From the IMG/VR virus record IMGVR_UViG_3300023174_000722, positions 1-21,202 of that record: DNA of 21,202 bases. One strand, 5' to 3'. A program made the translations under genes and the position numbers. How positions within the stretch are numbered: the first letter of the stretch is position 1; each line of letters opens with the position of its first letter. Shown here in pieces: positions 15,922 to 16,988 of this stretch. The stretch comes from a virus. Below the pieces are notes generated by a model. The model saw only the letters and a list, made by a program, of their open reading frames with translations, was not told where the DNA came from and did no database searches.

Positions 15922-15939
15922 ACAAGAAAGGTTGGATAA

Positions 15940-16707
15940 ATGAATGAGTTGGCTTTATTCGCAGGTGCTGGTGGAGGAATACTTGGGGGACATCTCCTTG
16001 GATGGAGAACAGTCTGTGCAGTCGAGTGGGAATCCTATCCCGCAAGCGTACTGTGCGCCAGGCAAAATGACGGACTTCTCCCGCCTTTCCCGATTTGGGA
16101 TGACGTTCAAACCTTTGACGGAAAACCTTGGAGAGGAATTGTTGATGTCATATCGGGAGGGTTTCCCTGTCAAGATATTTCAGTTGCAGGAAACGGAGCT
16201 GGAATTGACGGAGAAAGAAGTGGAATGTGGGGAGAAATGGCAAGGATCATTCACGAAGTACGACCAAGATTCGTGTTCGTGGAAAACTCACCAATGCTCA
16301 CTTCTAGGGGACTTGGGAGAGTTCTTGGAGACCTGGCCAACATGGGGTTTAATGCGGAATGGGGAGTGTTGGGACATGACCGATTCGGTGGTCAACACAG
16401 GAGAGACAGAATCTGGATTACTGCCTACACCTGTAAGAAGTCTTTTCGCTCATTGGTCAAGCGCCAAGGCAAAGTTCTTGAACAATGGAAAAAGAAAGAG
16501 CGGAGTGAAGGTTGGGTCGATTTTGTGGTGGGAGATGACGGAACAACACCTCCGTCTTGGAGGGTTAGAGGAAAAGAAAATGATTCCAGACCCATCATGT
16601 GGAGAAGTAGTGATGGGATGGCCGATGGGGTGGACAGAATTGCGGCCATTGGCAATGGACAAGTTCCAAGAGTGGCGGCAGCAGCATGGAGTTTATTAAA
16701 TGACTAG
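15940..16707 (+). CDS. C5-cytosine DNA methyltransferase
   Basis: A 255-residue protein with AAAGGTTGGA before ATG 15940. It shows the family motifs in order: I, LFAGAGGGILGG (6-17), the AdoMet loop; acidic VEWE (28-31); IV, GGFPCQDIS (73-81) with catalytic C77; VI, VENS (114-117; the usual form is ENV); VIII, GGQHRRDRIW (150-159); and X, IGNGQVPRVAAAAW (237-250). The target-recognition region between VIII and X (about 163-225) is short. It transfers a methyl group from AdoMet to cytosine C5 and probably protects phage DNA from host restriction. No cognate nuclease gene is near. A second full-length open frame overlaps it in +1 and is described separately. Confidence 0.9.
   Translation: MNELALFAGAGGGILGGHLLGWRTVCAVEWESYPASVLCARQNDGLLPPFPIWDDVQTFDGKPWRGIVDVISGGFPCQDISVAGNGAGIDGERSGMWGEMARIIHEVRPRFVFVENSPMLTSRGLGRVLGDLANMGFNAEWGVLGHDRFGGQHRRDRIWITAYTCKKSFRSLVKRQGKVLEQWKKKERSEGWVDFVVGDDGTTPPSWRVRGKENDSRPIMWRSSDGMADGVDRIAAIGNGQVPRVAAAAWSLLND
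15944..16699 (+). CDS. Overlapping +1-frame protein inside the methyltransferase gene
   Basis: 251 codons, open from ATG 15944 (4 bases after the methyltransferase ATG, in ATGAATGAG, so both can use the same SD) to TAA 16699. It covers almost the whole methyltransferase in another frame. The product has a normal, non-repetitive composition. Notable segments are YDQDSCSWKTHQCSLLGDL (106-124), FLETWPTWGLMRNGECW (127-143), ETESGLLPTPV (154-164) and GWPMGWTELRPLAMDKFQEW (225-244), Trp/Leu-rich patterns I recall from phage proteins annotated without function. The same DNA encodes motifs VI-X of the methyltransferase in frame 1. Its stop abuts the next ATG (TAAATG). It may be a genuine overprinted gene or a conserved shadow; not settled. 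Confidence 0.5.
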   Translation: MSWLYSQVLVEEYLGDISLDGEQSVQSSGNPIPQAYCAPGKMTDFSRLSRFGMTFKPLTENLGEELLMSYREGFPVKIFQLQETELELTEKEVECGEKWQGSFTKYDQDSCSWKTHQCSLLGDLGEFLETWPTWGLMRNGECWDMTDSVVNTGETESGLLPTPVRSLFAHWSSAKAKFLNNGKRKSGVKVGSILWWEMTEQHLRLGGLEEKKMIPDPSCGEVVMGWPMGWTELRPLAMDKFQEWRQQHGVY

Positions 16708-16948
16708 ACTAGAAGCACATGAAATACTTGATAGACAAAAACGAGGATTCCTCTGCTTACCTAGCGAGGTTAATCAAGCACTATGGGTCTGCGGAGACAC
16801 GAGAGGAGATTTTGTCGTGTCTAGCGATGGAATGGAAAAGACGATACATAGACAAGATGAAGACCTTGGGGAAACACAAAGCCTCTTCATGGTGGGCGAA
16901 ACAGATAGACGATATGGAAAAGAAGCGTGGGAAGCCATTTGTGGCTGA
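16700..16948 (+). CDS. Small protein, overlapping frame A
   Basis: 82 residues from ATG 16700, which follows directly on the TAA of the +1-frame protein, is in that same frame, and overlaps the methyltransferase stop by eight bases (ATGACTAG). GGAG (16688-16691) sits at correct distance, better than for its rival. The first 36 residues (MTRLEAHEILDRQKRGFLCL, PSEVNQALWVCGDTRG) resemble a short helical N-terminus seen, as I recall, in small phage proteins (AHxLL...ALxxTGD). The rest is polar and less convincing. It shares 230 bases with the frame starting at 16719, so probably only one of them is the main gene, unless both are used or a frameshift joins them. Confidence 0.45.
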   Translation: MTRLEAHEILDRQKRGFLCLPSEVNQALWVCGDTRGDFVVSSDGMEKTIHRQDEDLGETQSLFMVGETDRRYGKEAWEAICG

Positions 16949-16988
16949 TTTACGATTAAGAATGAACAAACTGAAAGAGACAAAATGA
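16719..16988 (+). CDS. Small basic helical protein, overlapping frame B
   Basis: 89 residues from ATG 16719, in another frame than the 16700 gene, ending in an ATGA overlap with the zinc-ribbon gene (16985-16988). No SD precedes it, so coupling or frameshifting would be needed. The product is helical and charged with a good hydrophobic pattern: YLARLIKHYGSAETREEILS (14-33), then MEWKRRYIDKMKTLGKHKAS and SWWAKQIDDMEKKRG, VADLRLRMNKLKETK. The SWWAKQIDDMEKKRG stretch looks like a real conserved phage helix. The ATGA link to the next gene supports this frame; the good SD supports the other. Function unknown. Confidence 0.55.
   Translation: MKYLIDKNEDSSAYLARLIKHYGSAETREEILSCLAMEWKRRYIDKMKTLGKHKASSWWAKQIDDMEKKRGKPFVADLRLRMNKLKETK

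Follow-up and report, generated by a model that had tools for sequence, protein, structure and literature searches.

The closest known case to the locus described here is M.EcoHK31I of E. coli (YGGCCR). Lee, Kam and Shaw reportedly found in 1995 that the frame of its small chain lies inside that of the large chain, in another reading frame, and that both chains are needed in vitro. M.EcoHK31I and M.AquI are two-polypeptide C5 methyltransferases; in M.EcoHK31I the large chain carries motifs I–VIII and X together with a predicted recognition domain, and the small chain carries motif IX (PMC3404938). M.AquI is also naturally split, with a small chain made up of the distal variable region and motif IX (PMC3404938), as well as motif X. 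A different kind of modularity is found in the multispecific phage C5 methyltransferases of the SPR, phi3T and H2 types, in which tandem recognition modules occupy the variable region of a single chain (PMC8936443). A second protein encoded in another frame of a phage methylase gene has also been described: the out-of-frame HNH endonuclease known as the ShiLan element (PMC11855218).

Here, we analyzed a 21.2-kb virus record, referred to as the window, containing a pair of genes, alpha and beta, that share almost all of their bases. We read this locus, with a probability of roughly 80% and on the strength of sequence comparisons, as a single DNA segment that encodes a nested C5-cytosine DNA methyltransferase of two chains. 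Given the precedents of M.AquI and M.EcoHK31I, the kind of system is already known; as far as the literature was searched, what appears to be new is the near-total overlap, the location of the recognition modules in the hidden frame and the wide occurrence, which takes in phages, prophages, several bacterial phyla and one archaeal contig. Compared by motif layout, not by sequence, alpha resembles the large chain of M.EcoHK31I in holding motifs I–VIII and X, with motif IX assigned to beta; however, the variable, exchangeable modules here lie in beta, and the two genes, whose starts are offset by 4 bases, overlap almost completely. Unlike in M.AquI, motif X remains in alpha. The PTP modules of beta are reminiscent of the tandem modules of the SPR, phi3T and H2 types, but they reside in the hidden frame, and recognition is their putative role. 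A ShiLan-type element was ruled out: that endonuclease is an inserted homing element, whereas alpha is uninterrupted and beta shows homology to methyltransferase sequence, making it part of the enzyme family and not an insertion.

Organization of the locus

Alpha, the C5-cytosine methyltransferase chain, extends in frame 0 from ATG 15940 to TAG 16707 (15940–16707, 255 aa; all features given here lie on the plus strand). Beta is nested within it in frame +1, from ATG 15944 to TAA 16697–16699 (15944–16699, 251 aa), precisely the 251-codon frame beginning 4 bases into alpha that the preliminary description had delineated. That description had the bases of beta also encoding enzyme motifs VI–X; the sharing is real, but it is not limited to these motifs, as beta overlaps every motif of alpha. 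It had also credited alpha with a motif IX, which is not recognizable there; the segment that we assign to motif IX is in beta. Finally, the stop of beta does adjoin the next ATG, at 16700, as had been claimed, but the downstream frame kept in relatives begins at 16719. Two ORFs in different frames, 16700–16948 (82 aa) and 16719–16988 (89 aa), overlap directly 3' of the pair. Homologs of the latter follow the pair in 18 related loci and homologs of the former in only 5; the 16719 frame is therefore the likelier gene, lying outside the pair, and the 16700 frame may be passive.

The catalytic chain

Alpha matched phrog_363 (E 2.6e-59) and Pfam PF00145 (E 9.8e-29), the latter over residues 4–175 only, whereas PF00145 spans residues 1–347 of the single-chain enzyme JoeyJr gp71. 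Matches to both PF00145 and TIGR00675 stop near residue 165–175 of alpha, and the TIGR00675 dcm cut-off was missed, at 78.8 vs 100.65 bits. In the AlphaFold2 model, the catalytic domain is confident and matches M.HaeIII and M.HhaI over ~168 residues, and pLDDT is about 45–50 over residues 171–240, staying below 50 for most of 169–238. Across 51 aligned alphas, G74, P76 and the catalytic C77 of motif IV (GGFPCQDI, 16156–16179) are invariant, as are R155 and R157 of motif VIII (HRRDRIWI, 16396–16419) and G238 of motif X (RIAAIGNGQVPRVAAAAW, 16636–16689), where N239 and P243 are nearly so. The alignment, the PF00145 match and the fold match thus place motifs I–VIII and X in the large chain, the distribution seen in M.EcoHK31I.

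The linker between motifs VIII and X (16435–16629) is variable and modeled with low confidence; neither Pfam nor the AlphaFold2 model revealed anything recognizable in it, including a target-recognition domain. Alpha does not, then, combine the motifs, a target-recognition domain, motif IX and motif X in one chain, as a single-chain C5 methyltransferase does. As judged from these comparisons, it is without exactly the part that beta appears to carry.

The nested chain

No Pfam or NCBIfam family matched beta. Its residues 33–170 matched phrog_1008, annotated 'DNA methyltransferase' (E 1.6e-15), assigning it to PHROG 1008, which also matches the C-terminal half (residues 177–361) of the single-chain methyltransferase JoeyJr gp71 (E 6e-65) and the second half of the split enzyme of Blue7, gp91. 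The C-terminus matched phrog_35493 (E 5.7e-11) and phrog_26627 (E 3.7e-8), small PHROGs of unknown function. The core of the protein, SWKTHQCSL..ETWPTWGLMRNGECW (residues 99–145; 16238–16378), has P132, W134, G135, M137 and G140 invariant in 51 betas. It is followed by a variable region (residues 160–215; 16421–16588) with a PTP module (LLPTP..), and then by a motif IX-like segment, EVVMGWPMGWTELRPLAMD, within residues 216–240 (16589–16663), which was matched by hhalign and is more conserved in beta than in alpha (0.675 vs 0.609).

Profile comparisons with single-chain actinophage enzymes indicate how the two proteins may complement each other. In JoeyJr, Ramsey and prophi91-4, the order along the single chain is motifs I–VIII, PTP modules, EWMMGWPxGW and motif X. 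By hhalign, the alpha profile aligned to motifs I–VIII (E 6.7e-38) and the beta profile matched EWMMGWPxGW directly before motif X (E 1.3e-8), with beta residues 214–235 forming the part aligned to the segment that precedes motif X. From its position, its resemblance and this one profile match, we infer that EWMMGWPxGW is C5 methyltransferase motif IX; its location in the small chain, as in M.EcoHK31I, is assigned by homology. The PTP-like motifs, numbering 0–5 per beta, are likely target-recognition modules, as suggested by their variability, their exchange between divergent betas and their position. We therefore propose that beta most likely serves as a target-recognition and motif IX subunit, a role suggested by its PHROG matches, its conserved open frame and the synonymous suppression described below. 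The earlier idea of a helper or modulator of methylation pointed in the right direction but was too vague. Modeled alone with AlphaFold2, beta gave a poor, low-confidence structure (pLDDT 54, pTM 0.25), and sequence searches of the PDB returned nothing credible with either the beta profile (best 3nng, E 0.05) or the single-chain C-terminus.

Members of the nested family conserve the first ~95 residues of beta, which are absent or different in distant members; among the loci found, no relatives of this part occurred outside nested loci. In JoeyJr, Ramsey and prophi91-4 (L226:1256–1852, L227:893–1198, L225:1120–2028), a +1 ORF containing the SxTxPxSGMTRxG part of beta lies nested over motifs VI–VIII, with the recognition modules and motif IX located in the main chain. 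Since the SxTxPxSGMTRxG part stays nested in these single-chain actinophages, beta may consist of two separable parts.

Openness of the +1 frame and translation start

The expectation of roughly a dozen chance stops, voiced in the preliminary description, is right for ordinary genes: the other genes of the window have 5–19 per 251 codons. Given the alpha protein, synonymous codon shuffling yielded 5.8 stops in the +1 frame on average and no stop-free version in 500, and recoding alpha with the codon usage of 12 other window genes yielded an expectation of 9.4, with 0 of 5000 versions stop-free. Relatives were gathered with the alpha protein alone, such that beta had no part in their selection, giving 71 distinct complete genes. 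In all 71, the beta ATG lies 4 bases past the reference start of alpha and the +1 frame is open, ending ≤8 codons from the end of alpha; the +2 frame of each contains 11–26 stops. When these were pooled with relatives found through beta (128 distinct genes), internal +1 stops numbered 0, against ~5.2 expected per gene.

Close relatives with stops in the +1 frame, which would have spoken against a second gene, were sought, and none was found in the family studied here. Among six distant methyltransferases picked as likely negatives, five proved to carry beta-like +1 frames, leaving the C5 methyltransferase of Klebsiella phage KP15, which is without beta, as the only true negative. This control fits the chance expectation, with 14 stops and a longest run of 63 (P 0.55). 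The open +1 frame of the nested family is far beyond chance.

The shared translation start (15927–15946) reads ATGAATGAG, comprising the alpha ATG (15940), one base and the beta ATG (15944), with a weak Shine–Dalgarno-like AAAGG upstream (15927–15931). The beta ATG is unchanged in 71 of 71 genes, and the alpha codon at the start position is ATG, GTG, TTG, TTA or CTT; relatives with the non-start codons TTA or CTT begin alpha further upstream, and several of them have AAGGAG after the upstream alpha ATG and before that of beta, a position well suited to beta. In E. coli, dual initiation has been documented where start codons overlap as AUGUG or GUGUG (PMC9841429), and by analogy it may occur at AUGAAUG.

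Selection on the nested frame

In the +1 frame, the second codon position of beta is the third of alpha. At 80–90% protein identity, third-position differences in alpha amount to 0.277, vs 0.405 in flanking genes. Likewise, for the same genome pairs at matched protein identity, fourfold sites diverge by 0.26 within the overlap and by 0.52 in flanking genes, with the overlap lower in 95% of comparisons; because the pairs have ancestry in common, the accompanying Wilcoxon P is not to be read at face value. These fourfold-site tests and the codon-position tests described below were used in place of an initial pairwise test of beta conservation, which gave z near 0 and was uninformative, as its null permitted resampled codons to equal those of the other sequence.

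The suppression is not uniform along the gene. Synonymous divergence of alpha is 0.18–0.20 over the conserved beta motifs (FSRLSRFGMTFKPL, LGEFLETWPTWGLMRN, VMGWPMGWTELRPLAMD), drops to 0.20 across codons 121–140, at the beta core, and reaches the level of ordinary genes (0.52–0.54) over the variable stretch of beta, codons 161–200. This pattern is the strongest point for selection on beta, and it answers the check on synonymous sites that had been suggested at the outset: suppression is found where beta motifs are conserved. The identity of alpha is 0.91 at its N-terminus and 0.11 across beta residues 171–215. As alpha is highly conserved at its N-terminus, part of the N-terminal conservation of beta is passive.

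The PTP module gives a view of the variable region. Over 35 residues, freshwater phage contigs and Sulfitobacter phage phiGT1 share 27 identical residues, and phiGT1 alone was matched in a phage-wide search with the module (84% over 32 residues, E 3e-10). Summed over related pairs, differences within the module fall 173/116/384 at beta codon positions 1/2/3; individual comparisons with phiGT1 give 11–16, 7–9 and 19–25. Their concentration at the third codon position of beta indicates that beta, not alpha, is constrained in the module. The second frame is thus under purifying selection beyond that of the main frame. The overprinted gene pair suggested by the preliminary description is supported by a conserved open frame, by suppression in the right places and by the existence of non-nested relatives of the +1 product.

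Arrangements among relatives and distribution

Three ARRANGEMENTS were found among relatives: a single chain, two partly overlapping genes, and full nesting, the last being the arrangement of the window. The single chain, with a nested SxTxPxSGMTRxG +1 frame, occurs in JoeyJr, Ramsey and prophi91-4. Partial overlap is found in the mycobacteriophages Firecracker (gp6/gp5) and Blue7 (gp92/gp91), where a beta homolog forms the C-terminal protein and has its start within the catalytic gene, in the +1 frame, as in the window; however, the overlap is only partial, and the second protein comprises the recognition region and motifs IX and X. Abidatro gp40/41 is a close variant of this arrangement. The search for relatives of the +1 product outside nesting, proposed earlier, was therefore fruitful, yielding these partly overlapping and single-chain forms in actinophages. 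In a tree of alphas, in which most nested rows came from a beta query, the single-chain and split actinophage forms make up one clade (support 100/100), and the remainder consists of nested forms, which fall to either side of the midpoint root.

Phages of Pseudomonas, Salmonella, Acinetobacter, Vibrio, Microcystis, Stenotrophomonas, Synechococcus and Bacteroides carry nested pairs, and similarity searches revealed them in hundreds of environmental virus contigs. They also occur in bacterial contigs of Pseudomonadota, Verrucomicrobiota, Lentisphaerota, Planctomycetota, Chloroflexota, Bacillota and Nostoc, and in one archaeal MAG contig; because a beta query was used to find the bacterial loci, they are uninformative on the frequency of nesting among all C5 methyltransferases. 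A beta-like +1 segment, partial in some cases, was found in phages of Paenibacillus, Streptococcus, Latilactobacillus and Rothia and in a Synechococcus phage. A more distant enterobacterial nested family, reached through a search of 392 genomes from the taxonomic family of Pantoea allii, includes the well-studied phages epsilon15 and K1ind3. The nested frame of epsilon15 (L247:1135–2178) has four GWPTP/GWVTP-like modules and no annotation.

Annotations choose either frame. Beta is a 'hypothetical protein' in Vibrio phage 1.236.O and Pseudomonas phage phPA-G, and the gene annotated 'methyltransferase' elsewhere is alpha; the K1ind3 record lists both frames, as ORF30 and ORF29 'Mte8-like', the latter annotation belonging to the nested frame (L246:1177–1974). 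In E. coli ECCTRSRTH03 (L248:1489–2658), a distant enterobacterial relative, RefSeq splits a DNA cytosine methyltransferase into two pseudogene pieces, both incomplete. In Nostoc mirabile (L218, genome G006), eight places match the beta profile, several with long open frames, which suggests that the pair has expanded in some cyanobacteria. Alpha is interrupted by a stop in the MAG contigs L179 and L190, and alpha and beta swap frames in L219; these interrupted frames may reflect sequencing errors or decay.

Proposed mechanism and alternative explanations

Both frames are conserved and constrained, they share a start, and the C-terminal half of other methyltransferases is where beta finds its homology. 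From these features we infer translation of both chains, complex formation, activity, site choice and a purpose for the pair, as follows. Alpha would be the catalytic chain, providing AdoMet binding, the PCQ nucleophile loop and motifs I–VIII, after which come a loose linker and motif X. Beta would supply the target-recognition modules and motif IX, both missing from alpha. The two chains, most likely initiated from one ribosome-binding region (ATGAATG), would pair, and the complex would methylate phage DNA at sites set by the beta modules, probably allowing escape from host restriction.

Among other explanations, it is hardly credible that the +1 frame is open by accident, with the composition of alpha excluding stops and the conservation of beta mirroring that of alpha. 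The 0.91 identity of the alpha N-terminus does make some of the beta conservation passive, but shuffled or recoded versions of alpha acquire stops, the +2 frame is full of them, synonymous suppression tracks conserved beta and is released elsewhere, and module differences follow the codon periodicity of beta. Improbable, though less so, is that programmed ribosomal frameshifting makes beta only as a fusion to the alpha N-terminus, so that a single long alternative methyltransferase results. Such a fusion would join motifs I–VIII to the recognition modules and motif IX in the canonical order, and single-chain forms exist in actinophages; however, it does not require the first 95 codons of beta to be open and constrained, it leaves unexplained a beta ATG that stays at +4 regardless of where alpha starts and that is closely preceded in some loci by a Shine–Dalgarno-like AAGGAG, and alpha retains its own motif X. 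Beta could also be translated yet act separately from the enzyme, for example as an anti-restriction or regulatory protein that arose inside the gene. The proposed alpha–beta link is drawn here from sequence, and the N-terminal part of beta lacks relatives outside the nested loci found, both of which would suit a separate protein. We nonetheless consider this unlikely, since the C-terminal half of beta is homologous to that of single-chain and split C5 methyltransferases and alpha is without exactly what beta has.

Implications

A broader proposition, for and against which we see the odds as evenly balanced, is that a large share of phage and prophage C5-cytosine methyltransferases, those of epsilon15 and K1ind3 included, are nested enzymes made by two genes: the hidden +1 gene would bear an array of exchangeable target-recognition modules, the alpha linker would be the coding space of that array, and phages would re-target the enzyme by swapping cassettes readable in both frames. 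If this holds, many annotated DNA cytosine methyltransferases that pass for complete would be only half an enzyme, and recoding the codons of the annotated gene for expression would silently destroy the other half. It would also explain why either a methyltransferase or a 'hypothetical protein' is annotated at the same place. These enzymes would be naturally split, modular methyltransferases, a type sought for targeted DNA methylation (PMC3439449, PMC3404938), and the family would give phage biology an old and widespread example of same-strand overprinting that can be tested.
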